Shown here one piece after another: positions 18,877 to 41,304 of a DNA stretch of 64,000 bases (position 1 is its first letter; each line of letters opens with the position of its first letter). The notes under the pieces were generated by a model. It made no database searches. It had not been told where the DNA came from and saw nothing but the letters and a program-made list of their open reading frames with translations. The translations under genes and the position numbers were made by a program. The stretch spans positions 744,001 to 808,000 of the forward strand of contig JACYFD010000001.1 in the NCBI GenBank assembly GCA_014803435.1. The letters are read 5' to 3'. This stretch comes from Cellulosimicrobium terreum (lineage in GTDB: Bacteria > Actinomycetota > Actinomycetes > Actinomycetales > Cellulomonadaceae).

Positions 18877-18894
18877 ATACCGCGCGGTCGGTAT
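18877..18894. promoter_or_regulatory. TetR-type operator, copy 1 of 4
   Basis: ATACCGCGCGGTCGGTAT is identical (reverse complement) to the copy at 41287 and identical to the copy at 32408. The outer arms ATACCG/CGGTAT are inverted copies. TATGGT, a possible -10 box, overlaps its right end, so a bound repressor would block the promoter of the SDR-TetR-oxidoreductase-SDR operon. The SDR start is 71 bases downstream. Confidence 0.7.
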
Positions 18895-18964
18895 GGTCTC
18901 GGACCTGCCGACCCGCACGCCGGTGGCCGCACGGTCGCCCGACGGAGAGGCACGTGACGCACCG

Positions 18965-19711
18965 ATGCGACGGTTCGAGGGCAGGGTCGCCCTGATCACT
19001 GGAGGAAGCCGCGGCATCGGGCTCGCGGTCGTCGAGCGGCTCGTCGCCGAGGGCGCGAGCGTGACGGTCACGGGCCGCTCGCAGGACACTCTCGACGAGG
19101 TCGTCGCGCGTCTCGGCGCGGACCACGTCGAGGCGGTCGCGGGGAAGGCGGACGACGCCGACCACCGCGCCGAGGCGATCGCCCGCACGGTCGCTCGGTT
19201 CGGTCGCATCGACCACCTCGTCAACAACGCCGGCGTGAACCCGGCGTACGGGCCGGCGCTCGAGATCGAGCCGTCCGTGATCCGCAAGATCCTCGACGTC
19301 AACGTGGTCGCCGCGCTCGAGTGGACGCGCGACGCGGTCGCCGCGGGCCTCGGCGCCGGCGGGTCCGTCGTGTGCACGTCCTCGGTCTCCGGCCTCGCTG
19401 CCAGCCCCGGGATCTCGTTCTACGGCGTCTCCAAGGCGGCGCTGGTCAACCTCACCCAGCAGCTCGCCGTCGAGCTCGCGCCGGGGATCCGCGTCAACGC
19501 GGTCGCCCCCGCGATCGTGCGGACCCGCCTGGCGCGTGCCCTCTACGAGGGGCGCGAGGACGAGGTCGTCGCGCGCTACCCGCTCGGCCGCCTCGGCGAA
19601 CCGTCCGACGTCGCGGGGCCCGTCGCGTTCCTCCTTTCCGACGACGCCGCGTGGATCACCGGTCAGACCCTGACGATCGACGGCGGCAGCAGCGTCCGCC
19701 CGATCGGGTGA
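18965..19711 (+). CDS. SDR family oxidoreductase (operon 1)
   Basis: A 248-residue classical SDR. It has the cofactor motif ITGGSRGIGLAV near residue 12, LVNNAGVNP, the catalytic serine in CTSSVSG and Tyr-x3-Lys in YGVSKAAL near residue 152. It oxidises or reduces a hydroxyl/keto group with NAD(P). The ATG at 18965 gives the standard MRRFEGRVALITGG start. An in-frame ATG at 18893 is rejected because it overlaps the operator and the putative -10. It is the first gene of the operon with TetR, quinone oxidoreductase and a second SDR. Confidence 0.88.
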   Translation: MRRFEGRVALITGGSRGIGLAVVERLVAEGASVTVTGRSQDTLDEVVARLGADHVEAVAGKADDADHRAEAIARTVARFGRIDHLVNNAGVNPAYGPALEIEPSVIRKILDVNVVAALEWTRDAVAAGLGAGGSVVCTSSVSGLAASPGISFYGVSKAALVNLTQQLAVELAPGIRVNAVAPAIVRTRLARALYEGREDEVVARYPLGRLGEPSDVAGPVAFLLSDDAAWITGQTLTIDGGSSVRPIG

Positions 19712-19721
19712 GGATGGGCGC

Positions 19722-20312
19722 ATGAGGCAGACACCCGTCGTCGACGACATCATGCGAGCAGCGCTCGACCTGTTCTCCACCCAGGGCTTCGCGAACACCT
19801 CGGTGCGCCAGGTCGTCGAGGCCGCGGGGGTGACCAAGGGCGCGATGTACCACTACTTCGAGTCCAAGGACGACCTGCTCTTCGCGATCTACGAGCGGAT
19901 CCTCTCCCTCCAGACGGCGCACCTCGAGGAGATCGTCGCGCGCGGTGAGCCGACGGCGCAGACCCTGCGCGAGGTCTGCGTGGACGTCGTCGAGACGTCC
20001 ATCGACTTCCTCGCCGAGGGCACGGTGTACTTCCGCAGCGCCCACATGCTCTCCGCCCCGCGTCAGCAGGAGGTCACCCAGCGGCGTCGGGCCTACCACG
20101 ACACGTTCTCCGCGATCATCGAGCGCGGCCAGCGTGAGGGCCTGTACCGCACCGACGTGCCGATGGGCGTGCTCGTCGCCCACTTCTTCTCGGACGTCCA
20201 CTACCTGTCCACCTGGTACTCGTCGACCGGCCCGGAGACCAAGTCCGAGGTCGCCGAGCAGATCACCGACATGTTCCTCGTCGCGCTCGCGGCCGGGAAC
20301 CCGAAGGAGTGA
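19722..20312 (+). CDS. TetR family regulator, likely the regulator of the four-operator regulon
   Basis: A 196-residue TetR protein. The HTH is NTSVRQVVEAAGVTKGAMYHYFESKDDLL at about residues 27-55, and a helical ligand domain follows with RSAHMLSAPRQQEVTQRRRAYHD. It lies 10 bases after the first SDR, inside the unit controlled by the operator at 18877, so it is probably autoregulated. It is the only TetR gene located inside one of the four operator-bearing units. That it binds all four copies is inference. An acyl-CoA or acid made by the pathway is the likely inducer. Confidence 0.9.
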   Translation: MRQTPVVDDIMRAALDLFSTQGFANTSVRQVVEAAGVTKGAMYHYFESKDDLLFAIYERILSLQTAHLEEIVARGEPTAQTLREVCVDVVETSIDFLAEGTVYFRSAHMLSAPRQQEVTQRRRAYHDTFSAIIERGQREGLYRTDVPMGVLVAHFFSDVHYLSTWYSSTGPETKSEVAEQITDMFLVALAAGNPKE

Positions 20313-20316
20313 ACGC

Positions 20317-21294
20317 ATGCGCGCGTGGCACGTGACGCGGCTCGGTGAGCCGCGCGAGGTGATGGAGATCGTCGACGTCCCCGAGCCGGAGCCCGGTCCG
20401 GGCGAGGTCGCGGTGCGGGTCCGCGCCGTCGCGGTCAACTTCCCCGACGTGCTGCTCGCGCGCGGCGAGTACCAGGTCCGTCCGGAGCTGCCCTTCGCGC
20501 CGGGGATCGAGCTGTGCGGCGAGGTGCTCGCCGTCGGTCCCGGGGTGGAGCGGGTGCGCGTCGGCCAGCGCGTCGTCGGCTCGCGGATCGGGGTCCTCGC
20601 GGAGGTCGCGGTGCTCGCGGAGCGCGAGGTGTTCCCCGCGCCCGACGCGCTGGACGACGCCGCGGCCGCGGCCCTGACGATCGCCTACCAGACCGCGTGG
20701 TTCGCGCTGCACCGGCGTGCGGTGGTCCAGCCGGGCGAGACGGTGCTCGTGCACGCGGCCGCCGGGGGCGTCGGGACGGCCACGGTCCAGCTCGCGGTCG
20801 CCGCAGGGGCCCGCGTGATCGCGGTGGTCGGCGGCGAGGCCAAGGCGCAGGTGGCGCGGGACGCCGGCGCGCACGTCGTGCTCGACCGCACGCAGGACGA
20901 CCTCGTCGCCCGGGTCAAGGAGGAGACGGGCGGTGCCGGAGCCGACGTGGTCGTCGACCCCGTCGGGGGCGACGCGTTCGACGCCTCGACCCGCTGCATC
21001 GCCTTCGAGGGGCGGATCGTCGTCGTCGGGTTCGCCGGCGGGCGCATCCAGTCCGTCCGGCCCGAGCACGCCCTCGTGAAGAACTACAGCGTGCTCGGCC
21101 TGCACTGGGGTCTGTACGCCCGCGTGCGGCCCGAGCTCGTCGCCGAGGCCCACGACACGATCTGCGCGCTCGTGGCCGACGGCGCCGTGCGGCCCGTCGT
21201 CGCCGACGTCGTCCCGTTCGAGGACGCCGCCGCGGCGGTCGAGCGGCTCGGAGAAGGTACGACCACCGGTCGGCTCGTCGTCCGCGTCGCGTGA
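20317..21294 (+). CDS. NADPH:quinone oxidoreductase family protein (MDR superfamily)
   Basis: A 325-residue zinc-independent medium-chain reductase. It opens MRAWHVTRLGEPREVME, has NFPDVLLARGEYQ (substrate-side loop without zinc ligands) and the NADPH motif VHAAAGGVGTATVQLA near residue 145. Family members reduce quinones, enones or enoyl thioesters. Start ATG 20317 lies 4 bases after the TetR stop, with GAAGGAG overlapping that stop. In this operon it may reduce an enoyl or enone intermediate. Confidence 0.9.
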   Translation: MRAWHVTRLGEPREVMEIVDVPEPEPGPGEVAVRVRAVAVNFPDVLLARGEYQVRPELPFAPGIELCGEVLAVGPGVERVRVGQRVVGSRIGVLAEVAVLAEREVFPAPDALDDAAAAALTIAYQTAWFALHRRAVVQPGETVLVHAAAGGVGTATVQLAVAAGARVIAVVGGEAKAQVARDAGAHVVLDRTQDDLVARVKEETGGAGADVVVDPVGGDAFDASTRCIAFEGRIVVVGFAGGRIQSVRPEHALVKNYSVLGLHWGLYARVRPELVAEAHDTICALVADGAVRPVVADVVPFEDAAAAVERLGEGTTTGRLVVRVA

Positions 21295-21320
21295 CGCGGA
21301 CCCCACGGAAGGACGTTCGG

Positions 21321-22055
21321 ATGGCACGGCTCGACGGCAAGGTCGCCCTCGTCAGCGGCGGGGCGCGCGGACTCGGCGCGGCGTACGTGCGTGCGCTGCA
21401 CGCGGAGGGTGCACGAGTGGTCGTCGCGGACCTCCTGGAGGCCGAGTCGGCGGCGCTCGCGGACGAGCTGGGCGACGACGTCGTCGCCGTCACGCTGGAC
21501 GTGACCGACGAGCAGGGCTGGGCCGCGGCCGTCGAGGCGACCCTCGCCGCGTTCGGCGCGCTGCACGTGCTCGTCAACAACGCCGGGATCGCGAACGCCG
21601 GCCGGATCGAGCGGTACGCCCGCGAGAAGTGGGACGCGGTGATCGCGGTCAACCTCACCGGCACGTTCCTCGGGGTCCAGGCCGTGCTGCCGGCGCTGCG
21701 GAGCGCGGGCGGGGGGTCGATCATCAACATCTCGTCGGTCGAGGGGATGCGGGGCAGCCCGGGCCTGCACGGGTACGTGGCGTCGAAGTTCGGCGTGCGC
21801 GGCCTGACGAAGTCCCTCGCCGTCGAGCTCGGGCCCGACAAGATCCGGGTCAACTCCGTCCACCCCGGCTTCGTGCTCACGCCGATGACCGAGCGGCTCG
21901 ACCCCGACTCCCCGCACATCCCCCTGGGTCGCCCCGCGCTGCCCGCGGACGTCGCGGGCGCCGTCGTGCACCTCGCGAGCGACGAGTCGGCCTACACGAC
22001 GGGCATCGAGCTGGTCGTGGACGGCGGCATGATCGCGGGCATCCCGCACTCCTGA
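21321..22055 (+). CDS. SDR family oxidoreductase, hydroxysteroid dehydrogenase-like
   Basis: A 244-residue classical SDR with SGGARGLGAAYV near residue 11, DVTDEQGW, LVNNAGIANAG, catalytic Ser in INISSVEGMRG and YVASKFGV near residue 151. The profile resembles 3-alpha/20-beta-hydroxysteroid dehydrogenases, but that name covers many alcohol substrates. ATG 21321 follows GGAAGGACGTTCGG. It is the last gene of operon 1. The next operator copy comes about 50 bases after its stop. Confidence 0.88.
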   Translation: MARLDGKVALVSGGARGLGAAYVRALHAEGARVVVADLLEAESAALADELGDDVVAVTLDVTDEQGWAAAVEATLAAFGALHVLVNNAGIANAGRIERYAREKWDAVIAVNLTGTFLGVQAVLPALRSAGGGSIINISSVEGMRGSPGLHGYVASKFGVRGLTKSLAVELGPDKIRVNSVHPGFVLTPMTERLDPDSPHIPLGRPALPADVAGAVVHLASDESAYTTGIELVVDGGMIAGIPHS

Positions 22056-22103
22056 GCGCTCGGCCGGGGGCGGTCTGGCGCACCCCATCGTTGCCCAATC
22101 GAC

Positions 22104-22121
22104 ATACCGGCCGGTCGGTTT
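22104..22121. promoter_or_regulatory. TetR-type operator, copy 2 of 4
   Basis: ATACCGGCCGGTCGGTTT differs from the other copies at three positions, including the right outer arm. It lies 41 bases upstream of the first ABC transporter gene and just before a possible -10 (TATCGT, 22128-22133). The inner ACCGGCCGGT is a perfect palindrome. Confidence 0.6.
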
Positions 22122-22161
22122 CTGTTGTATCGTCGACGTCATCCGACACGAAGAGGTGCCG

Positions 22162-22907
22162 ATGTCTACCACCGCAGCTCCCGCCGCCACACGGGTCCCA
22201 CGGCTCGCCGTCCATGACCTGACCGTGCGCTTCGGCGGGCTCACCGCCCTCGCGGACGTGTCCCTGCACGTCGACGACGGCGAGGTCGTCGGCCTGATCG
22301 GGCCGAACGGGGCGGGCAAGACCACGCTGTTCAACGCCGTGTGCGGTCTCGTCCGGCCGACGACGGGGAGCGTCTCGCTCACCACGGCGACCGGCGAGCC
22401 GGTGCCGCCCCGCCCCACCCGTCTCGTGAGCCACGGGGTCGCCCGCACCCTCCAGGGCCTCGGCCTGTTCGCCGGGCTGAGCGTGCTCGAGAACGTCGCC
22501 GCAGCGTGCCCCGACCGACGCCGCGCGGCGACGCGCGCCCGGGACGAGCTCGACGCCCTCGGCATCGGGCACCTCGCCGACGCCACGCCGACGACGCTGC
22601 CCTACCCGCTGCAGAAGAAGGTCGCGCTCGCCCGCGCGCTCGTCTCCCGTCCCGGACTCCTGCTGCTCGACGAGCCCGCGGGCGGCCTCGGTGCGGACGA
22701 CATCGCCGAGCTCGCCACGCTCGTGCGCCGCGTCGCGGACGACGGCTGCGCCGTCCTGCTGGTCGAGCACCACGTCGACTTCGTCATGGGGGTCTGCGAC
22801 CGCGTCGTCGTCCTCGACTTCGGGCGGGTGATCGCGACCGGGCCGCCCGCGGCGGTCCGGGACGACCCCGCCGTGGAAGCCGCCTACCTCGGCACGGAGG
22901 TCGCCCG

Positions 22908-22911
<4 letters not shown>
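22162..22911 (+). CDS. livG: LIV-type ABC transporter ATPase (LivG-like)
   Basis: A 249-residue ATPase of the branched-chain amino acid/amide transporter family. Walker A is GPNGAGKTT near residue 46, the signature region is degenerate (PYPLQKKVALARAL in place of LSGGQ), Walker B is LLLLDEPAGGL, and the H-loop is VEHHVDFV. The replacement of LSGGQ by YPLQK occurs in some LivG proteins. The start is ATG 22162 after AAGAGG. It is the first gene of the import operon livG-F-H-M-binding protein, under operator copy 2. It powers uptake across the membrane. Confidence 0.93.
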
Positions 22912-23620
<709 letters not shown>

Positions 23621-23621
<1 letters not shown>

Positions 23622-24499
23622 TGGACAGACTCGTGTTCCTCCTCGGCACCGGCCTCGCGCGCGGAGCGGTGCTGGCGCTCTTCGCGCTCTCGCTCGTCCT
23701 CGTCTGGCGCGCCGCCCGCGTCGTGAACTTCGCGCAGGGCGCGATGGCCGTCGCCGCGACGTACGTCGCGTTCGTCGTGACGAGCGCGACCGGGAGCTTC
23801 CTCCTCGGCCTGGGGGCGGCTCTCGTCGCCGGCGCCCTGCTCGGCTGGGCCGTGGAGCGCGGCCTCATGCGTCGCGTCGCCGGCGGCAACCCGCTCGCCG
23901 GGGTGATCGTCGCGATCGGCCTCGTCATGATCCTGCAGTCGGCGCTCGGCATCCTCGTCGGCGGCAGGCACCTGCCCGTGGCGGCGCCGTTCGACGAACG
24001 CCCGATCGTGGTCGGCGGGGTGCCGCTCCTGTCGCCGTACGACCTGTTCGTCCTCGTCGTCGCGCTCGTGGTGATGGCCGGGCTCGGGCTGCTCTTCACG
24101 CGCACCTCGCTGGGGCTGCAGATGCGCGCGGCCGCGTTCGCGCCCGAGGTGTCGCGGATGCTCGGCGTCCGGGTCTCGCGGCTGCTCACCCTCGGGTGGG
24201 CGCTCTCGTCGGCCGTCGCCGCGCTCGCCGCCGTCCTGCTCGTGCCGACGGAGCTGGGCCTGACGCCCCACGCCACGGACATGCTGTTCGTGCTCGGGTT
24301 CACGGTCGCCGTGGTCGGCGGGCTCGACTCGCCCGTCGGCGCCCTGGTCGGCGGGCTGGTCGTCGGCGTCCTCATCAGCCTCGTGACGGGGTACGTCGGC
24401 GCCGCCGTCGCACCCATCGCCGTGCTCGTGCTCCTGACGGTGGTCCTGCTCGTGCGGCCGCAGGGCCTGCTCGCGGTGGGGGAGGCGAGGCGCGCATGA
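23621..24499 (+). CDS. livH: LIV-type ABC transporter permease (LivH-like)
   Basis: A 292-residue permease with about eight membrane helices. RAARVVNFAQGAMAVAATYVA is the LivH signature, and LGLQMRAAAFAPEVSRMLGVRVSR is the cytoplasmic coupling (EAA-like) loop. It shares one base with livF (TGATG). It forms the translocation pore with LivM. Confidence 0.95.
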
Positions 24500-25626
24500 G
24501 CCCCCGACCCGCCTCGGCTCGGCCCGCCTCGTCGCGGCGCACGCTCGTCCTCGTCGCGCTCGCGACCCTCGCGGCGCTCGTCGCCGTCCTGTTCCTCGAC
24601 CCCTACCGCAGCTACCAGGTCGCGCTCGTCGCGGTCTACCTGTGCGCGACGGCGGGGCTGACGCTCGTCGTCGGGCTCGCCGGGCAGGTCTCGCTCGGCC
24701 ACGCGGCCCTCATGGCAGCGGGCGGGTACGGGTACGCGCTCACCGCGAACGCGCTGACCGAGGCAGGCGCCGAGGGCGCCGCCCGGTTCGTGCCGGCGCT
24801 GGTCGCCGGCGGCGTCGTCGCGGGCGTGCTCGGCCTGCTCCTCGGGCTCGCCGGTGCTCGGCTGCGCGGCCCCTACCTCGCGGGACTCACGCTGGCGCTC
24901 GTCATCGCCCTCCCCGCCGTCGCGACGACCTGGCGGTCGGTGCTCGGCGGCGACCAGGGCGTCCAGGTGGCGTTCGACGGCGTCCCCGAGCCCCTGCAGG
25001 CGTTCGTGGCCCTCGAGCAATGGCAGGCCTGGGTCGCGATCGTCGTCGCGGCGCTCGTCGTGGCCGGGCTCGCGATCCTGCGCGACGGTCGCCTCGGGCT
25101 GCGCATCCGCGCGGTCCGTGACGACGAGGTCGCGGCGCGGCTCAGCGGGATCCCCGCCGGCCGCGTGATGGTCGCGACCTTCACGGCGAGCGCCGTCGGC
25201 GCCGGGCTCGGCGGCGCGGTGCTGTGCTTCGTGACCCAGTCGGTGGCGCCCGGCGGCTACGGGCTCTCCCTGTCCCTCCTGCTGCTCGTCGCCGTCGTCG
25301 TGGGCGGGCTCGGGAGCCTGCGCGGCGCCGCGATCGGTGCCGTCCTGCTCGTCCTCGTGCCGTGGCTCGCCGGCCTCGTCGCCGGCGCGCTGCCCGTCCC
25401 CGCCGACCTGTCCCAGCGGCTCGACGGCAACCTCGCCGTGCTGCTGTTCGGCGTCCTGCTCGTCGTCGTCATGGTCGCCGCGCCGGGTGGCGCGGTCGGC
25501 GCGGTCCGCGCATCGCGGGCCCGACGACGGCGCGCCACCCCGTCCGTCGCCACCGTCCCAGCCGCACCCGACCAGACCGCGCCCACCCGGCGCGCCGCAC
25601 CCATGCTCCACGACACAGAGAGGTGA
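24496..25626 (+). CDS. livM: LIV-type ABC transporter permease (LivM-like)
   Basis: A 376-residue permease. GLAGQVSLGHAALMAAGGYGYA is the LivM signature, and RLGLRIRAVRDDEVAARLSGIP is the coupling loop. A disordered, Arg/Ala/Pro-rich C-terminal tail of about 45 residues (ASRARRRRATP) follows the last helix and is longer than usual. The start overlaps the livH stop (ATGA), and the binding-protein gene starts 5 bases after its stop. Confidence 0.95.
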   Translation: MSPRPASARPASSRRTLVLVALATLAALVAVLFLDPYRSYQVALVAVYLCATAGLTLVVGLAGQVSLGHAALMAAGGYGYALTANALTEAGAEGAARFVPALVAGGVVAGVLGLLLGLAGARLRGPYLAGLTLALVIALPAVATTWRSVLGGDQGVQVAFDGVPEPLQAFVALEQWQAWVAIVVAALVVAGLAILRDGRLGLRIRAVRDDEVAARLSGIPAGRVMVATFTASAVGAGLGGAVLCFVTQSVAPGGYGLSLSLLLLVAVVVGGLGSLRGAAIGAVLLVLVPWLAGLVAGALPVPADLSQRLDGNLAVLLFGVLLVVVMVAAPGGAVGAVRASRARRRRATPSVATVPAAPDQTAPTRRAAPMLHDTER

Positions 25627-25631
25627 CGAGG

Positions 25632-26942
25632 ATGTCACGCACGACACGCACCACCCGCACCACCCGCCGCACCCTGCGCGGGACCGCAGCACTCGCCCTG
25701 CCCGCCGCGGTCCTCGGCCTGGCGGCCTGCAGCGTCCCCGGCTCCACGGCAGCCGACGAGGGCGACTCCACCGGCGTCACCGAGGACACCGTCCTGGTCG
25801 GGACGCACACGCCACTGACCGGGCCGGCGGCCGCCGGCTACTCCTCGATCTCCGCGGCCGCCGGTGCCTACTTCGACTACCTCAACGACCAGGGCGGCAT
25901 CAACGGCCGCACCATCCAGTTCGTCGTCAAGGACGACGGCTACAACCCGGCGAACACGCAGACCGTCGTGCGGGAGCTCGTCACCGAGGACGAGGTGTTC
26001 GCGATCCTCAACGGGCTCGGCACGCCGACCCACTCCTCCGTCCTCGACTACCTCGACCAGAACGACGTGCCGGACCTGTTCGTCGCGTCCGGCAGCACGT
26101 CCTGGGACCAGCCCGAGGAGTACCCCTGGACGTACGCGTTCAACGTCGACTACGCGCGGGAGGCCAAGGCGCTCGCGCACTACGCGCAGGACGAGCTCGA
26201 CGGCTCGGTGTACTGCGTGCTGGGCCAGGACGACGACTTCGGCGCCGAGTTCCAGCAGGGCCTCGAGGCGGTCCTGGGCGCGGACGGGCTCGAGTCCGTG
26301 CAGACGTACTCGGTGTCCAACGAGGACGTCTCCGCACAGATCGGCGCCATGCAGGCGGCGGGCTGCGACACGAACTTCCTCGCGACCGTCAACGGCTTCA
26401 CGGCGCTCGCCGTCGGGACGGCCGCGCAGCTCGGTTACCAGGCCCAGTGGCTGTCGTCGTCGTCGGGCGGGGACTACCCGACGCTCGTGGGCTACCTCGG
26501 CGAGGACATCGCACCCGCCCTGCTCGAGGGCTTCGTCTCGACCAACTACCTGTCGTTCAGCCCGGACGACCCGTGGGCCGAGCACTTCCGCACCGTGAAC
26601 GAGGAGTACAACGAGGGTGCGACGTTCGACGGCAACACCGTCTACGGCATGTCCGTGGCCTACACGTTCGCAGAGGCGCTCGCGAAGGCCGGCGAGGACC
26701 CGACGCGCGAGAGCCTGGTCGAGGCGCTCGAGTCCGGTGACGTCGTCGGGGCCGGCATCATGCCGATCGGGTTCTCCGCCGACAGCCACGCGGCCTACAG
26801 CGGTGCGGGCATCACGTCGGTCACCGGCGGCGTGCAGGACTACGTCGGCCCGATCTACACCACGGACGACGCCGAGGGTCCGGTCGAGGACTTCACCGGC
26901 GAGGCCGTCCCGTTCGCGGACGACGGGGTTCCCCAGCCCTGA
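25632..26942 (+). CDS. LIV-type ABC transporter substrate-binding lipoprotein
   Basis: A 436-residue binding protein. A Thr/Arg-rich start is followed by a hydrophobic segment ending in the lipobox GLAAC near residue 33. The mature part is a Peripla_BP_6 fold: VLVGTHTPLTGPAAAGYSSI, AYFDYLNDQGGINGRTI, VFAILNGLGTPTHSSVLDYL, and a hinge region GGDYPTLVGYLGEDI. The family binds amino acids, amides and also aliphatic or aromatic acids. Its placement in a regulon with an acyl-CoA ligase favours an acid, but ligand residues cannot be assigned. It is the last gene of the operon. Confidence 0.93.
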   Translation: MSRTTRTTRTTRRTLRGTAALALPAAVLGLAACSVPGSTAADEGDSTGVTEDTVLVGTHTPLTGPAAAGYSSISAAAGAYFDYLNDQGGINGRTIQFVVKDDGYNPANTQTVVRELVTEDEVFAILNGLGTPTHSSVLDYLDQNDVPDLFVASGSTSWDQPEEYPWTYAFNVDYAREAKALAHYAQDELDGSVYCVLGQDDDFGAEFQQGLEAVLGADGLESVQTYSVSNEDVSAQIGAMQAAGCDTNFLATVNGFTALAVGTAAQLGYQAQWLSSSSGGDYPTLVGYLGEDIAPALLEGFVSTNYLSFSPDDPWAEHFRTVNEEYNEGATFDGNTVYGMSVAYTFAEALAKAGEDPTRESLVEALESGDVVGAGIMPIGFSADSHAAYSGAGITSVTGGVQDYVGPIYTTDDAEGPVEDFTGEAVPFADDGVPQP

Positions 26943-31270: not shown

Positions 31271-32340
31271 CGCCTCCCGACGCCGGCGAGCCCGGCGAGG
31301 CCCTCGTCCGCGAGGGGCCGGACGAGGCCGCCGATCGCGTCGAAGCCGTCGCCGACCGTCTCGCCCGCCTGGTAGCGGAAGTGCACGCCCTCGAGGATGA
31401 CGCCGAGCTTGTAGGCGCCGAACGCGCGGTACCAGGACAGCTCGGGGACGGACCGGCCGAGGCGCGCCTCGTAGGCGTCCACGACCTCGTCGAAGGACGG
31501 GTACCCCGCCGCGGGGTCGACGGCGCTCGTCGTCACGCCCGCGGCCGTGTCGCCGAGCGAGCGGATGCCCCAGTACAGGCCCAGCATGCCGACGTCGACC
31601 GCCGGGTCGCCCAGCGTGGCCATCTCCCAGTCGAGCACGGCCGCCACGCGGGGGCCGTGCCCGGGGTCGCGACCGACGATCACGTTGTCGAGCCGGAAGT
31701 CCCCGTGCACGATCCCCGCCGAGGAGTTCTCCGGGACCCGCTCGCGCAGGCGCTCGCCGAGCTCGTCCAGGGCGGCGACGTCCCGGGAGCGGGACGCGTC
31801 GAGCTGGGTCGCCCAGCGGCGCAGCTGCCGTCCGAGGTAGCCGCCCGGTCGGCCGAAGTCACCGAGCCCGACGGCGGCCGGGTCCACCCGGTGCAGGTCC
31901 GCCAGGGTCTCGGCGAGCTCGAGGCCGAGCGCGTGCAGCTCCGCGGGCGTGTAGGCGGCGTTCTGGGCCGGGTCGGCGAGCACGTCGCCCGCGACGTGCT
32001 CCATGAGGAAGAACGGGGTCCCGGTGCCCGCCTGGCCGTCGGAGTCGTCGACCACGTCGACGACCGGGGGGACGGGGACGTCGGTGTCGGCGAGGGCGGA
32101 GATGACCCGGTGCTCGCGCGCCATGTCGTGCGCGGTGGACAGCACGTGGCCGAGCGGCGGGCGGCGCAGGACGAGCGGCACCGTCGTCCCGTCCAGGCGG
32201 TACGTGAGGTTGCTGCGCCCGCCCGCGATCAGGGCCGCGGTGACCGGGGTGGACGTCGTGAGGGCCGGGTGCTCGCGGCGCAGCCACACGTCGAGCCGGT
32301 GCACGTCGAGACCGGGTGGGTCCGGTGTCGGTGGGGTCAT
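31267..32340 (-). CDS. APH-fold phosphotransferase family protein, partner of the acyl-CoA dehydrogenase
   Basis: A 357-residue kinase-like protein. The nucleotide loop is LIAGGRSNLTYRLDG near residue 40, a lysine-equivalent arginine lies in VLRRPPLGHVLSTAHDM, the catalytic loop is IVHGDFRLDNVIVG near residue 211 (HGDxxxxN), and the metal aspartate is in AVLDWEMATLGDPAVDVG near 236. This is the N-terminal domain type of eukaryotic ACAD10/11 and resembles LvaA of levulinate catabolism. The name aminoglycoside phosphotransferase is only structural. It is the first gene behind operator copy 3 and overlaps the dehydrogenase start (ATGA). Confidence 0.92.
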   Translation of the reverse strand: MTPPTPDPPGLDVHRLDVWLRREHPALTTSTPVTAALIAGGRSNLTYRLDGTTVPLVLRRPPLGHVLSTAHDMAREHRVISALADTDVPVPPVVDVVDDSDGQAGTGTPFFLMEHVAGDVLADPAQNAAYTPAELHALGLELAETLADLHRVDPAAVGLGDFGRPGGYLGRQLRRWATQLDASRSRDVAALDELGERLRERVPENSSAGIVHGDFRLDNVIVGRDPGHGPRVAAVLDWEMATLGDPAVDVGMLGLYWGIRSLGDTAAGVTTSAVDPAAGYPSFDEVVDAYEARLGRSVPELSWYRAFGAYKLGVILEGVHFRYQAGETVGDGFDAIGGLVRPLADEGLAGLAGVGRR

Positions 32341-32407: not shown

Positions 32408-32425
32408 ATACCGCGCGGTCGGTAT
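32408..32425. promoter_or_regulatory. TetR-type operator, copy 3 of 4
   Basis: ATACCGCGCGGTCGGTAT, extended to GCATACC...GGTATGC, so it is the most symmetric copy. On the minus strand TATGCT overlaps its end as a possible -10, with the kinase start about 68 bases downstream. Confidence 0.7.
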
Positions 32426-33755: not shown

Positions 33756-34220
33756 TCAGGTAGCAGCGACCACCAGGTCACGGACGACGGCGGCCCGGAT
33801 GCCCGCGGGGACCGGCGTCGGGCGACGCGTGGCGCGGTCGACGAACACGTGCACGAACCGCCCGTGGGCGATCGGCTCGTCCTCGCCCTCGCGGAGGATG
33901 CCCAGCTCCCACACGACGCTGGACGTGCCGACGCGGCCCGCGCGCAGCCCGACCTCGAGCACGTCGGGGAACGACGCGGACGCGCGGTACTCGCACGAGC
34001 TGCTCACGCAGACGCCGATCGCGGGACCGGTGAGGCGGTCGAGCCCGGCGACGCGCACGAGCCAGGTGTTGATCGCCGTGTCCATCGCCTCGTAGTAGAC
34101 GGTGTTGTTCATGTGGCCGTAGACGTCGTCGTCGTTCCAGCGCGTGGGGAACGGCGAACGGTGCCCGTACCCCGGGTCGGCGGGCGCGGCGTCGGGCTCG
34201 GCAGTGTGCTCGGGGTGCAC
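33756..34220 (-). CDS. Acyl-CoA thioesterase, hotdog fold
   Basis: A 154-residue 4HBT-type thioesterase. TRWNDDDVYGHMNNTVYYEAMDTA holds the catalytic aspartate region (D-x-Y-GH-N), and the remaining strands follow (SCEYRASASFPDVLEVGLRAGRVG). It hydrolyses an acyl-CoA. The GTG at 34218-34220 has GGAGA upstream; a longer open frame has no support. It lies 24 bases after the QsdR-like regulator and is probably cotranscribed with it. Confidence 0.88.
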   Translation of the reverse strand: MHPEHTAEPDAAPADPGYGHRSPFPTRWNDDDVYGHMNNTVYYEAMDTAINTWLVRVAGLDRLTGPAIGVCVSSSCEYRASASFPDVLEVGLRAGRVGTSSVVWELGILREGEDEPIAHGRFVHVFVDRATRRPTPVPAGIRAAVVRDLVVAAT

Positions 34221-34243: not shown

Positions 34244-34978
34244 TCAGGCAGTCGTCGTCGGGCTGCGGTCGAGGTGCAGCACGAGCTCGAACGCGGTGCG
34301 GGCGCGGGCCGCGCTCGGCACGTCGCCCGCGATGAGATCGGCGTAGGTGAACGACTCGCTGATGCGCACGAGGAGGTAGGCGAGCTCGCGCGGCGGAACG
34401 TCGCGGCCGAGCGGGCGCTGGCCGAGCTCGGTCGCGACGAGCGCCTCGACCTCGGCGACGTAGCGGCGCTGGATCTGGCTCTCCTTGGTGGTGAGCAGGC
34501 GCAGCGCGCGCGCGGGCTCGCGCTGCAGGAACGTGCGGAAGTAGTCGGCGTCGATGAGGTCGTGCACGAACGTCGTCAGAACGGACGCGACGCGCGCGCT
34601 CCCGGCGTCGTCCGCCGCGGCGAGGTCGGCTTGCTCGAGCGTGGGCACGGCGAGCGACCAGAGGACCTCGGAGAGCAGGGCGTCGCGGTTGCCGACCCAG
34701 CGGAACAGGCTCGTGCGGTCGACTCCGAGCGCGGCGGCGAGCCGGCCCATGTCGATGCGCTCGCCCGCGATGAAGGTCTCGCGGGCGCGTCGGTACGCGG
34801 TCACGGTCTCGGTGTGGCTGCCGGACGCGAGCCGCTCGGAGAGCCAGGACGGCGCGGCGGCGAGCCCGACGTGCCCCAGTCGACCACCCGGCTGACCACC
34901 CAGCCCACCAACCGGCAGGCTTCCGGTCGAGGCCGTCTCGACCGGAGGGAGCGCGTGAGCGACGTCGTCTCGGGGCAT
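34244..34978 (-). CDS. QsdR-like TetR family regulator
   Basis: A 244-residue regulator. An N-terminal variable part of about 40 residues is followed by WLSERLASGSHTETVTAYRRA, then the HTH IDMGRLAAALGVDRTSLFRWVGNRDALL at about residues 75-102. The Phe-Arg-Trp in the recognition helix and the upstream block are typical of QsdR-type TetR proteins. It is divergent from an acyl-CoA dehydrogenase and sits next to a 24-bp palindrome, which is probably its operator. The effector is unknown; QsdR relatives respond to lactone degradation in Rhodococcus, but acyl-CoA is as likely here. Confidence 0.88.
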   Translation of the reverse strand: MPRDDVAHALPPVETASTGSLPVGGLGGQPGGRLGHVGLAAAPSWLSERLASGSHTETVTAYRRARETFIAGERIDMGRLAAALGVDRTSLFRWVGNRDALLSEVLWSLAVPTLEQADLAAADDAGSARVASVLTTFVHDLIDADYFRTFLQREPARALRLLTTKESQIQRRYVAEVEALVATELGQRPLGRDVPPRELAYLLVRISESFTYADLIAGDVPSAARARTAFELVLHLDRSPTTTA

Positions 34979-35029
34979 GAGGCGACTCTACCGACGCGGG
35001 ACGCATTCTGCGCAACATCTCTGAGAGTG

Positions 35030-35053
35030 ATGCATCATTCTCCAGAATGATGC
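35030..35053. promoter_or_regulatory. 24-bp palindrome, probable QsdR-like operator
   Basis: TGCATCATTCT-CC-AGAATGATGCA has perfect 11-bp arms. It lies in the divergent gap between the regulator (start 34978) and the acyl-CoA dehydrogenase (start 35111) and is much more AT-rich than its surroundings. A GCATTCTGCG half-site lies at 35001-35010. Confidence 0.7.
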
Positions 35054-35110
35054 ACACTGGGACGAGGGATCACTGCCGATCCGATCACCGCCGATCTCCC
35101 GGAGGTACCG

Positions 35111-36307
35111 ATGACCACGACCACCGCGCCGCAGCCGACGCTGCTCGCGAGCGACTTCTACGGCGTGCAGGGCGACCTCGCGCCGGGTGAGCAGGGCCAG
35201 GTCCTGCGCATCCGCGAGTTCCTCGAGCGCGAGGTCCGACCGATCGCCGACGACTGCTGGGACCGCGCCGAGTTCCCGCACCACCTCGTCCCCGGTCTTG
35301 CCGACCTGGGCCTGTTCGGCGCGCACCTGCCGGAGACCGCCCGGTTCGAGAACGGCATGCTGTACCGCGGCTGGGTCGCGCTCGAGCTGGCCCGCGTCGA
35401 CCCGTCGATCGCGACGTTCATCGGCGTCCAGACCGGCCTGACGATGACCGCCATCGCCGGCGGCGGCTCGCCCGAGCAGCGCGAGCGCTGGCTGCCCCCG
35501 ATGGGCCGCGGCGAGATCATGGGCGCCTTCGGGCTCACCGAGCCGTTGTCCGGCTCCGACACCGCGCGCGGCCTGCGCACGACCGCCGAGCGCCAGGGCG
35601 ACACCTGGGTGCTGAACGGCGAGAAGCGCTGGATCGGCAACGCGACCTTCGCCGACGTGATCGTCGTGTGGGCCAAGGACGTGGCGGACGGCCAGGTGAA
35701 GGGATTCCTCGTGCGCGGGGGAGCCCCGGGCCTCACGGCGACGAAGATCGAGCGCAAGCAGGCGCTGCGCACCGTGCAGAACGCGGACATCGTGCTCGAC
35801 GGCGTCCGGGTCGCGGAGGAGGACCGGCTGCAGCGCGTCGCGTCGTTCCGCGACGTGGCGGACGTCCTGCGCCCCACGCGCGCCGAGGTTGCCTGGCAGG
35901 GCGTCGGCGTCGCCGTCGGCGCGTACGAGGCCGCCGTCGCGTACACCGCGACGCGCGAGCAGTTCGGCCGCCCCCTCGCGTCCTTCCAGCTCGTCCAGGA
36001 CCGCCTCGCGGAGTCCCTCGCGGACATCACGGCGAGCATCGCGACGTGCGCCCGGCTGTCCGTGCTGGCCGAGAAGGGCGAGCTGCGCGACGAGCACGCC
36101 GCGATGGCGAAGAGCTTCACGACGACCCGCATGCGCGCGACCGTCGCGCGCTGCCGCGAGCTCCTGGGCGGCAACGGCATCCAGCTCGACCACGGCGTCG
36201 CGCGGTACTTCGCCGACGCCGAGGCCGTCTACACCTACGAGGGCACCCGGGACATGAACAACCTCATCGTCGGCCGGGCCATCACGGGCGTCCAGGCCTT
36301 CGTCTGA
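35111..36307 (+). CDS. Acyl-CoA dehydrogenase, glutaryl-CoA dehydrogenase-like
   Basis: A 398-residue ACAD. The FAD/substrate motif is MGAFGLTEPLSGSDTARGLRTTA, followed by NGEKRWIGNATFAD and the catalytic glutamate in YTYEGTRDMNNLIVGRAITG near the C-terminus, the glutaryl-CoA dehydrogenase pattern. Decarboxylation cannot be assumed from this alone. ATG 35111 follows GGAGGTACCG. It starts a two-gene unit with a thiolase, controlled by the palindrome at 35030. Confidence 0.92.
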   Translation: MTTTTAPQPTLLASDFYGVQGDLAPGEQGQVLRIREFLEREVRPIADDCWDRAEFPHHLVPGLADLGLFGAHLPETARFENGMLYRGWVALELARVDPSIATFIGVQTGLTMTAIAGGGSPEQRERWLPPMGRGEIMGAFGLTEPLSGSDTARGLRTTAERQGDTWVLNGEKRWIGNATFADVIVVWAKDVADGQVKGFLVRGGAPGLTATKIERKQALRTVQNADIVLDGVRVAEEDRLQRVASFRDVADVLRPTRAEVAWQGVGVAVGAYEAAVAYTATREQFGRPLASFQLVQDRLAESLADITASIATCARLSVLAEKGELRDEHAAMAKSFTTTRMRATVARCRELLGGNGIQLDHGVARYFADAEAVYTYEGTRDMNNLIVGRAITGVQAFV

Positions 36308-36395: not shown

Positions 36396-37619
36396 GTGGA
36401 GGAGGCCTATGTCGTCTCAGTCGCCCGGTCCCCGATCGGGCGCGCGTTCAAGGGGTCGCTGCGGGACGTGCGTCCCGACGACCTTGCCGCCGAGATGGTG
36501 CGTGCGGCGCTCGCCCAGGTACCGACGCTCGACCCGGGCAGGGTCGAGGACCTGCTGCTCGGGTGCGGTCAGCCGGGCGGGGAGCAGGGCATGAACATGG
36601 CCCGCGTCGTCGCTGTGCTGCTCGGGCTCGACGGCGTACCCGGCACGACCGTCAACCGCTACTGCTCGTCGAGCCTCCAGACCACACGCATGGCGTTCCA
36701 CGCGATCCGTGCGGGCGAGGGCGACGTGTTCGTGTCCGCCGGCGTGGAGTCCGTGAGCAGCACCGCGCGTGGCACGGCCGACCACATCCCGGGCGAGGAC
36801 CTCACCAACCCGCGGTTCGCCGACGCGGTCGCCCGCACCGCGAGCCGCTCCGAGGCGGGAGCGCCGACGTGGACGGACCCTCGGCTCGAGGCCGGGGTCC
36901 CCGACGTGTACGTCGCGATGGGGCAGACGGCGGAGAACGTCGCCCAGCTCACCGGGACTTCGCGCCGCGAGCAGGACGAGTTCGCGGCCCTGAGCCAGCA
37001 GCGCGCGCAGGCGGCGATCGCGAGCGGGTTCTGGTCCCGGGACATCACGCCCGTCACCCTCCCGGACGGTACGCAGGTCGTGGCCGACGACGGCCCGCGC
37101 GCCGGCGTCACGGTCGAGTCCCTGGGCGGCCTCGACCCGGTCTTCCGCCCGGACGGCACCGTGACGGCGGGCAACTGCTGCCCGCTGAACGACGGCGCTG
37201 CCGCCGTCGTCGTCGTCAGCGGCCGGGTCGTGGAGGAGCTGGGGCTCCAGCCGCTCGCGCGGATCGTGTCGACCGGCGTGAGCGGGCTGTCCCCGGAGAT
37301 CATGGGCCTCGGCCCGGTCGAGGCGAGCCGGATGGCGCTCGAGCGGGCGCGCCTGACGATCGACGACGTCGACCTCGTGGAGATCAACGAGGCGTTCGCC
37401 GCCCAGGTGCTGCCGAGCGCCAAGGAGATCGGCGTCGACCTCGAACGCCTCAACGTGCACGGCGGCGCCATCGCGGTGGGCCACCCGTTCGGCATGACGG
37501 GCGCCCGGATCACCTCGACGCTCATCCACGGCCTCCAGGAGACCGCTGGCCGCTACGGCCTCGAGACGATGTGCGTCGGCGGCGGCCAGGGCATGGCGAT
37601 GGTGCTCGAGCGGGTCTGA
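36396..37619 (+). CDS. Acetyl-CoA C-acyltransferase (thiolase)
   Basis: A 407-residue thiolase. The nucleophile is in VNRYCSSSLQTTRMA near residue 89. EINEAFAAQVLPSAKE and HGGAIAVGHPFGMTGARI are the substrate and catalytic His blocks, and the C-terminal cysteine is in TMCVGGGQGMAM, so it is catalytically complete. The GTG 36396 follows GAGAGGAGG. It lies 89 bases behind the acyl-CoA dehydrogenase and is probably its operon partner. This is the second thiolase of the window and is clearly different from the one at 8348. Confidence 0.93.
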   Translation: MEEAYVVSVARSPIGRAFKGSLRDVRPDDLAAEMVRAALAQVPTLDPGRVEDLLLGCGQPGGEQGMNMARVVAVLLGLDGVPGTTVNRYCSSSLQTTRMAFHAIRAGEGDVFVSAGVESVSSTARGTADHIPGEDLTNPRFADAVARTASRSEAGAPTWTDPRLEAGVPDVYVAMGQTAENVAQLTGTSRREQDEFAALSQQRAQAAIASGFWSRDITPVTLPDGTQVVADDGPRAGVTVESLGGLDPVFRPDGTVTAGNCCPLNDGAAAVVVVSGRVVEELGLQPLARIVSTGVSGLSPEIMGLGPVEASRMALERARLTIDDVDLVEINEAFAAQVLPSAKEIGVDLERLNVHGGAIAVGHPFGMTGARITSTLIHGLQETAGRYGLETMCVGGGQGMAMVLERV

Positions 37620-37696
37620 CGGAACGCGACGAACCACGCGGCACCGCCCACCGCATCTCTGCCCTTTCGGCTCTGGTGGCCGTGCGCCGACCGACC

Positions 37697-37702
37697 TAGC
37701 GT
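37697..37702 (+). promoter_or_regulatory. Possible -10 box for the orphan gene
   Basis: TAGCGT lies 54 bases before the ATG at 37757. No convincing -35 precedes it, so this is a weak assignment. Confidence 0.3.
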
Positions 37703-37756
37703 GAACGGGGGACTGGTCCGTCGGGCCGTCGAACGCGGGTCGGTCGGGAGGCCACG

Positions 37757-38749: not shown

Positions 38750-38799
38750 TCACCGCCTAGTGACATCCCGACCGCGCTGAACGAGCTCGTCACCCTCGG

Positions 38800-38830
38800 A
38801 GGCCCGCCCCGCAGGCTGCGGGGCGGGCCT
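38800..38830. terminator. Strong hairpin terminator
   Basis: AGGCCCGCCCCGCA and TGCGGGGCGGGCCT form a perfect 14-bp stem with a 3-base loop. It lies between the convergent ends of the orphan gene and the MaoC gene and can serve both. There is no T-run, as is common in very GC-rich actinobacteria. Confidence 0.8.
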
Positions 38831-38878
38831 CGTGGCGCTCGCACGGCTCGTGGCGGCGTGCGCGAGGTTCCCGGCCGG

Positions 38879-39355
38879 TCAGGCCGGGACGACGAGGACG
38901 ATCGTGTCCGCGACGAGCGCGGGCTTGTCCGCGCCCTCCACCTCGATGCTCACGCGGATGCCGACGCGGCTTCCGCGGGCGCCGCCGTCCACGCTCGTGA
39001 CGGTCGACGTCGCGCGCACACGCGACCCGGCGAGCACGGGGGAGATGAAGCGCACGGAGTCGAGACCGTAGTTGACGTGCATCGCGACGCCGCCGACGTC
39101 GAGCAGGCCCTCGGTGAGGACCGGCAGGAGCGAGAGGGTGAGGTACCCGTGCGCGACGGGTGCGCCGAAGGGGCCGGTCGCGGCACGCTCGGGGTCGACG
39201 TGGATCCACTGGTGGTCCTCGGTGACGTCCGCGAATGCGTCGATGCGTGCCTGGTCGACGACGACCCACCGCTCGGACGTGGCCGAGCGCCCGACGGCGC
39301 CGGGCAGGTCGGCGACGGACGCGACCTGGATCGTGGTGGCGGTCTCGGCGCTCAT
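38879..39355 (-). CDS. MaoC family (R)-enoyl-CoA hydratase
   Basis: A 158-residue single-hotdog hydratase. FADVTEDHQWIHVDPERAATGPFGAPVAHGYLTLSLLP carries the catalytic Asp/His (D-H-x-WIH variant of the hydratase-2 motif) near residues 45-52. It resembles NodN/MaoC proteins of about 150 residues. The ATG overlaps the stop of the SDR upstream (ATGA). It is the last gene of operon 4 (alcohol dehydrogenase, FabG, MaoC). Confidence 0.92.
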   Translation of the reverse strand: MSAETATTIQVASVADLPGAVGRSATSERWVVVDQARIDAFADVTEDHQWIHVDPERAATGPFGAPVAHGYLTLSLLPVLTEGLLDVGGVAMHVNYGLDSVRFISPVLAGSRVRATSTVTSVDGGARGSRVGIRVSIEVEGADKPALVADTIVLVVPA

Positions 39356-40134
39356 GCGCGCGGCCCTCCCGCCGCGTAGACGACCTGGCCGGAGACGAAC
39401 CCGGCCTCCTCGGAGCAGAGGAACGACGCGAGGGCCGCGATGTCCTCCGGCTGCCCGACGCGGCGCACGGGGATCTCCTTCGCCATGTGCTCGCAGAACT
39501 CGTCGAACCCCATCCCGACGCGCGCGGCCGTCTCGCGGACCATGTCCGTGGCGACGAACCCGGGAGCGATCGCGTTGGCAGTCACGCCGAACGGCCCGAG
39601 CTCGATCGCGAGGGTCTTGGTGAACCCTTGCATGCCGGCCTTCGCGGCCGCGTAGTTGGCCTGACCGCGGTTGCCGAGCGCGGACGTGCTGGACAGGTTC
39701 ACGACGCGGCCCCACTTCGCCTCGACCTGGTGTGCCTGCACCGCACGGCTCATGAGGAACGCGCCGCGCAGGTGGACGCCGAGCACGGCGTCCCAGTCGT
39801 CGTCGGTCATCTTGAACAGCAGGTTGTCGCGCAGGATGCCCGCGTTGTTGACGAGCACGGTCGGGGCGCCGAGCTCGTCGACGACGCGCACGATCGCGGC
39901 GTCGACCGCGCCGCGGTCCGCGACGTCGGCGCCGACGGCGATCGCGCGGCCGCCGTCGTCCTCGATGCTCTTCGCGGTCTCGGCGGCCTGCTCCTCGCGC
40001 AGGTCGACGACGGCGACCTGCAGGCCGTCGGACGCGAGCCGGCGCGCGATCGCGGCGCCGATGCCGCGGGCGCCGCCCGTGACGATCGCGGTACGAGCGG
40101 TCGTGCTCCGGGTGGTGGGCTGGGGTTCGGTCAT
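39352..40134 (-). CDS. SDR family 3-oxoacyl reductase (FabG-like)
   Basis: A 260-residue SDR. It has VTGGARGIGAAIA near residue 18, LVNNAGILRDN, the catalytic Ser in NLSSTSALG, YAAAKAGMQGF, and ANAIAPGFVATDM, which is close to canonical FabG. It probably interconverts 3-hydroxyacyl- and 3-oxoacyl-CoA. It overlaps both neighbours by 4 bases. It is the third SDR of the four-operator regulon. Confidence 0.92.
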   Translation of the reverse strand: MTEPQPTTRSTTARTAIVTGGARGIGAAIARRLASDGLQVAVVDLREEQAAETAKSIEDDGGRAIAVGADVADRGAVDAAIVRVVDELGAPTVLVNNAGILRDNLLFKMTDDDWDAVLGVHLRGAFLMSRAVQAHQVEAKWGRVVNLSSTSALGNRGQANYAAAKAGMQGFTKTLAIELGPFGVTANAIAPGFVATDMVRETAARVGMGFDEFCEHMAKEIPVRRVGQPEDIAALASFLCSEEAGFVSGQVVYAAGGPRA

Positions 40135-41249
40135 CGTGAGGTCCCTTCGTGGGGTCGGATCAGCTGGCGGAGCCCGGCGCCGGTGGCCAGGCGGTCCATC
40201 GCGGTGCAGAGGTCGTCGAGGGGGACGTGCGCGGTCACGAGTCGTTCGAGCGGGAGCCGCCCGTCGCGCCAGAGCTGCACGTAGCGGGGGATGTCGCGGG
40301 CGGGCACTGCCGATCCGAGGTAGCTGCCGACGACGGTGCGCGCCTCGGCGGTCAGCGTCAGGGGAGCGATCGCGGACCGCGCGTCCGGCCCCGGCAGGCC
40401 GACGGTGACCGTCGTCCCGCCGGGCGCGGTCGCCGCGAACGCCGTCTCGAACGCGCGGGCGCTGCCCGCGGCCTCGACGACGACGGGCGCTCGCAGCCCG
40501 GACGCGGCGAGCGCGGCGGGGGTGTGGGCGGCCGAGGCGCCGAGGTCGCGCGCGAGGTCGAGCTTGTCCTCGACCGCGTCGACGCCGATCACCTCGTGGC
40601 CCAGCGCGCGCGCGACGAGCAGCGCCGCCATGCCGACGCCGCCCAGCCCGACGACGAGCACCGGCTCGCCCGGGCGCGGGCGACCCGCGTTCAGCACGGC
40701 ACCGCCCCCGGTGAGCACCGCGCAGCCGAGGAGGGCCGCGACGTCGGGCGGGACGTCGTCGTCCACCGGTACGACGGACGTGCGGCTGACGACGGCGTGG
40801 GTCGCGAAGGCCGAGACGCCGAGGTGGTGGTGCACGGGTTCGCCGTCGCGGCGCAGGCGGCGCCCGCCACCGACGAGCGTCCCGGCGCCGTTCGCGGCGC
40901 TGCCCGTGCGGCACGGCAGGCGGCCGTCGGTCGCGCACTCGGGGCAGTCGCCGCAGCGGGGCAGGAAGGTCAGGACGACGCGGGTCCCGGGCGCGACGTC
41001 GTCGACGCCGGCCCCGACCTCCTCGACGATCCCGGCTGCCTCGTGGCCGAGGAGCATCGGCACCGGGCGCTCGCGGCTGCCGTCGACGACGGAGAGGTCG
41101 GAGTGGCACAGACCGGCGACCTCGATCCGCACGAGCAGCTCGCCGGGTCCGGGCGGGTCGAGCTCCAGGCGTGAGACGGTCAGCGGGCGCGAGCCCGCGA
41201 AGGGCGCGGGCGCCCCGATCCGCTCGAGCACGGCTCCGACGATCTCCAT
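40131..41249 (-). CDS. Zinc-dependent alcohol dehydrogenase
   Basis: A 372-residue medium-chain dehydrogenase. Catalytic zinc ligands are in GLCHSDLS and LGHEAAGIVEEVG. The structural zinc cluster appears as CGDCPECATDGRLPC, and the cofactor motif is VLVVGLGGVGMAALL near residue 190. It belongs to the class III-like group (FLPRCGDCPEC). It oxidises a primary or secondary alcohol, or reduces a ketone or aldehyde. ATG 41247-41249 follows GGGAGGTACGAGGCG; an in-frame ATG at 41270 lacks a ribosome-binding site. It is the first gene of operon 4, behind operator copy 4. Confidence 0.92.
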   Translation of the reverse strand: MEIVGAVLERIGAPAPFAGSRPLTVSRLELDPPGPGELLVRIEVAGLCHSDLSVVDGSRERPVPMLLGHEAAGIVEEVGAGVDDVAPGTRVVLTFLPRCGDCPECATDGRLPCRTGSAANGAGTLVGGGRRLRRDGEPVHHHLGVSAFATHAVVSRTSVVPVDDDVPPDVAALLGCAVLTGGGAVLNAGRPRPGEPVLVVGLGGVGMAALLVARALGHEVIGVDAVEDKLDLARDLGASAAHTPAALAASGLRAPVVVEAAGSARAFETAFAATAPGGTTVTVGLPGPDARSAIAPLTLTAEARTVVGSYLGSAVPARDIPRYVQLWRDGRLPLERLVTAHVPLDDLCTAMDRLATGAGLRQLIRPHEGTSR

Positions 41250-41286
41250 CGCCTCGTACCTCCCTGACATCGTCGTCCAGAGTTCC

Positions 41287-41304
41287 ATACCGACCGCGCG
41301 GTAT
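41287..41304. promoter_or_regulatory. TetR-type operator, copy 4 of 4
   Basis: ATACCGACCGCGCGGTAT, the reverse complement of copies 1 and 3. The start of the alcohol dehydrogenase is 37 bases downstream on the minus strand, and TATGGA at the operator end could serve as its -10. Confidence 0.7.

Follow-up and report, generated by a model that had tools for sequence, protein, structure and literature searches.

Which regulator controls a 22-kb cluster of importer and catabolic genes in Cellulosimicrobium terreum, and on what acid do its enzymes act? The cluster lies in a 64,000-nucleotide stretch of contig JACYFD010000001.1 (positions 744,001 to 808,000; assembly GCA_014803435.1), which we call the window. 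A first-pass annotation made from the sequence alone had noted four copies of one 18-bp palindrome, each ahead of a unit of genes, and had proposed that a TetR-family regulator encoded in the first unit (the TetR at 19722) controls all four. We consider it likely that this TetR, which resembles PfmR of Thermus thermophilus, represses five promoters of a regulon for import and breakdown of a 4-hydroxy or 4-oxo acid by a phosphate-based route.

Scanning the window with the 18-mer ATACCGACCGCGCGGTAT returned perfect matches at operators 1, 3, and 4 and a match with three mismatches at operator 2 (Table 1), as originally described, and no other site with up to three mismatches. Shuffled controls gave a mean of 0.06 sites per shuffle, and four or more sites occurred in none of the 100. 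Over the full 4.49-Mb genome, two further matches with three mismatches appeared (contigs C10 and C11). The genome contains five sites of the general form AWACCGN6CGGTWY, four of which are the window operators, in line with the earlier expectation of few copies outside the cluster. The gaps between site and start codon were 70 bases for the first short-chain dehydrogenase (SDR1; start at 18965), 67 for the kinase (32340), 37 for the alcohol dehydrogenase (ADH; 41249), and 40 for LivG (22162; 34 with an alternative GTG start at 22156), close to the 37 to 71 bases previously noted. Gene families were assigned from Pfam profile matches of 30 open reading frames (ORFs) and from NCBIfam matches, and solved relatives from sequence searches of the PDB; the Pfam matches bore out the gene content given for the four units. 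The description as an 18-bp palindrome needs amending: the sites are real, but the palindrome is imperfect, and the part that is nearly invariant across orthologous sites is the dyad ACCG-N6-CGGT, flanked by A/T-rich ends.

The sites accompany the TetR gene across relatives. The best 80 of 88 matches to this gene in the named genomes represent 77 distinct loci, of which 75 (L009 to L083) hold orthologues with 57 to 90% identity and two encode distant proteins (27%). Counting as a site any sequence with at most four mismatches to ATACCGACCGGTCGGTAT in the 1 kb preceding the TetR gene, we found one in 73 of the 75 orthologue loci and in neither of the distant ones; a reversed-sequence control gave one match over 78 loci. 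By position, the site stands ahead of SDR1 in most loci, and in three (L017, L020, and L062) it lies 47 to 69 bases before the TetR gene itself. A second site follows 2.0 to 5.5 kb downstream in 59 of the 75 loci (some loci stop too early to show one), ahead of the Liv genes where genes were checked.

Whole genomes were searched with AWACCGNNNNNNCGGTWY, a first degenerate pattern having been dropped as too loose (it matched 17 of 17 genomes of the genus). Sites were present in 27 of 28 genomes (133 Mb), and the reversed pattern matched seven times over the same 28. Genome G021 has no site of the strict form, and its locus, L014, shows a variant with four mismatches. Of the 141 distinct sites, 90 were no more than 35 kb from the TetR gene and the other 51 lay outside this range; at least three sites were near the TetR gene in 21 of the 28 genomes. 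Within the genus, matches to the TetR (E of 1e-20) and to the acyl-CoA dehydrogenase (ACAD) of the kinase unit (E of 1e-60) were confined to the same two of the 17 genomes. Clustered sites were limited to these two, the remaining 15 having zero to two distinct sites each, unclustered. That the operators are chance matches or copies of a dispersed repeat is hardly credible: isolated general-form sites do occur in most genomes, making up the 51 above, but the shuffles, the clustering, and the conservation of position all contradict it.

Gene order, read by tblastn with the window proteins, proved conserved in eight other clusters from six genera (Cellulomonas, Antribacter, two from Isoptericola, Krasilnikoviella, two from Agromyces, and Cellulosimicrobium). 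All eight contain SDR1, the TetR, a quinone oxidoreductase (QOR), SDR2, five Liv genes, the ACAD, the kinase, and a thioesterase, along with a second TetR, another acyl-CoA dehydrogenase (ACADb), a thiolase, MaoC, FabG, and ADH. Sites precede the kinase and ADH in all eight clusters and SDR1 and LivG in seven, the eighth being visible in L009. The site, the TetR gene, and the units are thus conserved together, and the genome scan and the relatives lend in silico support to the first-pass annotation's view that the four units form one regulon.

The operators also lie on or beside putative core promoters. Of 59 Liv promoters, 47 have a TANNNT box beginning at site coordinate 25, and 49 have one anywhere in the searched interval (none in either of two control intervals). 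SDR1-type sites have such a box 7 to 16 bases upstream in 68 of 72 cases (one in the control interval). At the kinase promoter, TATGCT extends over the site end in the window and in six of eight relatives, and the ADH promoter is mixed, with TATGCT at the site in five of eight relatives and an upstream box in others and in the window. Boxes had earlier been said to overlap three of the sites; we instead find two arrangements, in which the box is downstream of or overlaps the site (Liv and kinase) or lies just upstream of it (SDR and ADH). Because the operators overlap or abut these -10-like boxes, and so would cover or touch the core promoter in the pattern expected for a repressor, the geometry suggests repression.

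The cluster encodes two TetRs, and the sites might belong to the second (at 34244), or to a TetR elsewhere, with the TetR at 19722 a mere passenger of its operon. The operator class is indeed common to unrelated TetR-family members (PaaR and PfmR), and the second TetR is within the cluster in all eight relatives read. We nevertheless regard this alternative as very unlikely, since the sites track the 19722 orthologue and the second TetR is adjoined by a conserved palindrome of its own. Moreover, the second TetR had no match at an E of 1e-20 in 7 of the 28 genomes, and four genomes without such a match (G031, G032, G036, and G039) keep three or four clustered sites. Given these four, the natural choice of regulator is the TetR at 19722, as first proposed. 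The other palindrome, near perfect and located before ACADb, has related palindromes at the same place in eight relatives, and its strict pattern matches once in the C. terreum genome. It is probably the operator of the second TetR, serving ACADb and the thiolase, and makes a candidate second repressor-operator pair within the cluster.

The only other strict-form site in the genome (C1:1113480; L086:7481-7498) lies 35 bases before a carboxylesterase gene, outside the window. Esterase relatives with 71 to 72% identity are encoded in two Isoptericola genomes (L121 and L122), each with a lone distant site directly before the esterase gene and a TACGNT box in the same register, so that the arrangement recurs in three genomes. 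In two further genomes, the esterase relatives are weaker (44% and 55%), and the stretch examined there contains no site. The earlier view of the cluster as a self-contained pathway was too strong, with ACADb and the thiolase inside the 22 kb under a different operator and the carboxylesterase outside the window under the same one.

The substrate is best approached through the ACAD and the kinase. The best solved relative of the ACAD is ACAD11 (2WBI; E of 2.8e-132), followed by 8V3U and 8V3V (also ACAD11) and an unnamed ACAD (4HR3), after which there is a gap to 6e-42. The protein carries an upstream Arg, an HCMR motif, and a catalytic Asp (RLGPGRVHHCMR and LADGPDEV), features shared by all eight other clusters and by TTHB015 of T. 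thermophilus. Searches with the kinase gave 9O56 and 3DXP (about 1e-52) ahead of the ACAD11 kinase domain (8V3V; E of 3.9e-42); the protein has an HGD motif with its catalytic Asp in the window and in all eight other clusters. In the available text of one study, changing the Arg, HCMR, and Asp residues ablates the ACAD step (PMC12440821), and excerpts of another describe the same two-step reaction, with bacterial enzymes replacing the human domains (PMC11342911). Since both proteins are of the ACAD10/11 (LvaC/LvaA) type with diagnostic residues, the regulon most likely acts on a 4-hydroxy or 4-oxo acid. Together with the ligase, SDRs, MaoC, FabG, and thiolase, they may form a route from such an acid to acetyl-CoA.

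The regulon could also be correctly drawn and serve another hydroxylated acyl-CoA, for example that of a cyclic acid. The top NCBIfam match of SDR2 is trans-4-hydroxycyclohexanecarboxylate dehydrogenase ChcB1 (261 bits, under the cut-off of 400), and a LIV-type importer and an esterase are not among the named lva genes in the text available to us. We find this rather unlikely, as the window ACAD has the phosphate-binding residues of ACAD11 and the catalytic Asp, and the bacterial and mammalian kinase-ACAD pairs act on 4-hydroxyacyl-CoAs in the accessible parts of both studies (PMC12440821 and PMC11342911). We did not use a further idea, that of a lactonase (qsd), for which we turned to PMC6262395; its main text, as far as available, contains neither "phosphotransferase" nor "acyl-CoA dehydrogenase."

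The first-pass annotation could not match the pathway to a named system. In our analysis, the chemistry matches ACAD10/11 and LvaA/LvaC, and the regulation and gene set resemble those of PfmR. PfmR (TTHB023) of T. thermophilus HB8 is a TetR_N plus TetR_C_24 repressor encoded in its own operon, like the window TetR; PF00440 and PF17932 score above cut-off in both. Its operator, given as TACCGACCGNTNGGTN in the available text of PMC7022988, shares the dyad and core with the window operators, the exact 18-mer differing at one fixed base. The PfmR regulon (TTHB014 to TTHB023 on pTT27; L108) encodes a phosphotransferase, an ACAD11-type ACAD with HCMR and Asp, and an SDR, as well as an AMP-binding protein, MaoC, FabG, and a second ACAD, much like the window set; a thiolase gene is also included according to the same excerpts (PMC7022988). 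Pairwise identities to Thermus operon proteins were 29% for the kinase, 41% for the ACAD (TTHB015), 31% over 197 residues for the ligase, and 36% over 89 residues for MaoC, and FabG and the SDRs gave pairwise matches too. By its operators, the window TetR would control genes for the same set of kinase, ACAD, ligase, SDR, MaoC, and FabG. In a one-way search, the window TetR was the best match of PfmR in the C. terreum genome (E of 4.2e-15; next, 8.7e-11); KstR2 and DarR were among the other TetR matches to the window TetR. The sequence of the solved Thermus repressor 3VPR agrees by eye with TTHB023 when aligned. The systems differ in that the Thermus genes form one ten-gene operon on a megaplasmid, as opposed to four units in the window, and that the 30 kb read there has no gene annotated as a LIV importer. 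In Thermus, DUF6285 and histidine phosphatase genes adjoin the kinase gene.

The lva system of Pseudomonas putida (LvaABCDE) and mammalian ACAD10 and ACAD11 share with the window a kinase and ACAD pair and its diagnostic residues, and the lva operon has ligase and SDR genes, as does the window. It differs in regulation and transport, for which the available text names the sigma54-dependent regulator LvaR and LvaF/LvaG, in contrast to a TetR and an ABC importer. No LvaR-type regulator was seen among the ORFs scanned around the cluster, where the two TetRs were the sole regulators; no genome-wide search was made. LvaB we take to be a DUF6285 protein, and the C. terreum genome gave no match to that family. 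The P. citronellolis cluster, as far as described in the text available, also lacks lvaB, and homologues of lvaABCD are reported from Alpha-, Beta-, and Gammaproteobacteria in excerpts of PMC6692424.

The operator core recurs in a third system. Burkholderia cenocepacia PaaR, a TetR-type repressor of phenylacetate genes, recognizes the inverted repeat ACCGACCGGTCGGT in several promoters according to the available text of PMC2770484. This core is identical to that of the window operators, and the window MaoC has a weak similarity to PaaZ (E of 2e-13), so a PaaR-type phenylacetate regulon has to be weighed. It is highly improbable given that no Paa oxygenase subunit was matched among the 30 ORFs scanned. 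We know of no role for a kinase and an ACAD11-type enzyme in the phenylacetate pathway.

From the sites, conservation, gene families, diagnostic residues, and promoter geometry observed here, we infer binding, repression, inducer, substrate class, and order of steps as follows. The TetR at 19722 would bind the dyad AWACCG-N6-CGGTWY at five promoters and repress its own operon, the LIV-type importer, the kinase-ACAD-ligase and ADH-FabG-MaoC units, and the unlinked carboxylesterase, until released by the substrate or a CoA derivative of it. The importer would take up the acid, and the ligase would convert it to its CoA thioester. The SDRs or ADH might reduce a 4-oxo group to the 4-hydroxyl or set its stereochemistry. 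The APH-type kinase would phosphorylate the 4-hydroxyacyl-CoA, and the ACAD10/11-type enzyme would eliminate the phosphate to give a 2-enoyl-CoA. MaoC and FabG could hydrate and oxidize this product for cleavage by the thiolase, with ACADb and the thiolase presumably under the second TetR and its own operator.

Several observations weigh against this proposal. Two of the 75 orthologue loci (L014 and L051) have no upstream site as defined above, and the ligase is present in six of the eight other clusters and missing from both Isoptericola clusters, which slightly lowers our confidence. No convincing operator was seen at four ACAD11-type loci on plasmids from other genera (four records out of 204). 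The esterase had no match at an E of 1e-60 in 6 of 10 genomes searched, including G016, the nearest relative with the regulon. The window TetR is only 26.5% identical to PfmR; TTHB017, the Thermus relative of the ligase, is short (314 residues); and the DUF6285 profile (PF19802) had no match in the C. terreum genome. The roles given to the SDRs, ADH, and QOR are guesses based on family. Finally, the operator core is common to PaaR and so does not identify the pathway by itself.

Table 1. Operators and genes of the cluster (coordinates are those of the window)
Feature	Coordinates	Strand	Remarks
Operator 1	18877..18894	-	precedes SDR1-TetR-QOR-SDR2 unit; -10-like TACCCT just upstream of site
SDR1, short-chain dehydrogenase	18965..19711	+	family match
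TetR-family regulator, TetR_N + TetR_C_24	19722..20312	+	proposed repressor of five operators, PfmR-like
QOR, quinone-oxidoreductase/MDR-type dehydrogenase	20317..21294	+	family match
SDR2	21321..22055	+	top NCBIfam match ChcB1; best solved relative Rv2002 (1NFF)
Operator 2	22104..22121	-	precedes Liv importer; -10-like box at site coordinate 25 (47/59 orthologous promoters)
LivG-type ABC ATPase	22162..22911	+	family match
LivF-type ABC ATPase	22908..23621	+	family match
LivH-type permease	23621..24499	+	family match
LivM-type permease	24496..25626	+	family match
Importer substrate-binding protein	25632..26942	+	Peripla_BP_6
MFS transporter	27100-28326		between binding protein and ligase
AMP-forming acyl-CoA ligase	28351..30000	-	family match
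ACAD10/11-type acyl-CoA dehydrogenase, LvaC-like	30032..31264	-	RLGPGRVHHCMR; catalytic Asp in LADGPDEV
APH-type kinase, LvaA-like, related to ACAD11 kinase domain	31267..32340	-	HGDFRLDN
Operator 3	32408..32425	-	precedes kinase-ACAD-ligase; -10-like TATGCT overlaps site end
Fic/DOC-family gene	32543-33721		just upstream of kinase promoter
4HBT thioesterase	33756..34220	-	downstream of second TetR
Second TetR, TetR_C_36	34244..34978	-	family match
Separate operator-like palindrome	35031..35054	.	between second TetR and ACADb
ACADb, ordinary acyl-CoA dehydrogenase	35111..36307	+	family match
Thiolase	36396..37619	+	family match
MaoC-type hydratase	38879..39355	-	family match; weak PaaZ similarity
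FabG-type SDR	39352..40134	-	family match
Zinc-type alcohol dehydrogenase (ADH)	40131..41249	-	best NCBIfam match NDMA-dependent ADH (248 bits, under cut-off of 440)
Operator 4	41287..41304	+	precedes ADH-FabG-MaoC; -10-like TAGGGT just upstream of site

Some neighboring genes vary between relatives. The Fic/DOC-family gene, found in none of the eight other clusters, is likely an insertion, and the MFS transporter gene is likewise found in none of them. The ligase and binding protein genes are adjacent in other genera, and about 11.7 kb of other DNA lies between them in the nearest relative (L103-L104; G017 C5, about 315.9-327.6 kb). The best PDB match of the importer's substrate-binding protein is 4N03, presumably deposited under the name of a fatty-acid binding protein. 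Past ADH in an Agromyces cluster there is an extra operator-like site (L099:8611), and further LivF-like ATPase genes lie in that stretch. Two Cellulomonas genomes carry the perfect palindrome AAACCGACCGGTCGGTTT at an unlinked place (L089:5211 and L105:5306). A stray site (L102) at the start of an MFS gene may be a target of another TetR. Among the plasmid loci, the Asp-motif search string had no match in those of Rhodococcus and Deinococcus, in which HCMR is present. In the ACAD11-type cluster of a Tsukamurella plasmid (L113), the ligase gene neighbors one for a phosphotriesterase, a hint that 4-hydroxy acids might derive from lactones.

The published role of PfmR is in phenylacetate and fatty acid metabolism according to the available text of PMC7022988. 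We tentatively suggest, as a possibility short of a probable one, that PfmR-type TetRs serve in two phyla, Actinomycetota and Deinococcota, specifically to sense the 4-hydroxyacyl-CoA (phosphorylation-elimination) pathway, with a 4-hydroxyacyl-, 4-phosphoacyl-, or enoyl-CoA as the inducer. If so, PfmR, assigned before the chemistry was explained, would need reassignment, and a function would be offered for the structurally known Thermus repressor (3VPR), which was assigned before the ACAD10/11 papers appeared. Our literature searches, within the library covered, found no paper naming both PfmR and ACAD11, individual papers naming one or the other, and none on a Cellulomonas instance. All parts belong to known kinds, and the novelty, as far as these searches went, is in their combination with the importer and esterase and in the bridge between PfmR and ACAD10/11 chemistry. 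A poorly understood kind of repressor would thereby be tied to recently explained chemistry, the ACAD10 and ACAD11 route in mammals. For Cellulomonas-type actinobacteria, the locus would provide a regulon that is close to complete and can be tested (repressor, operator, importer, esterase, and enzymes) for the use of 4-hydroxy or 4-oxo acids, with levulinate and related plant-biomass acids as plausible substrates.

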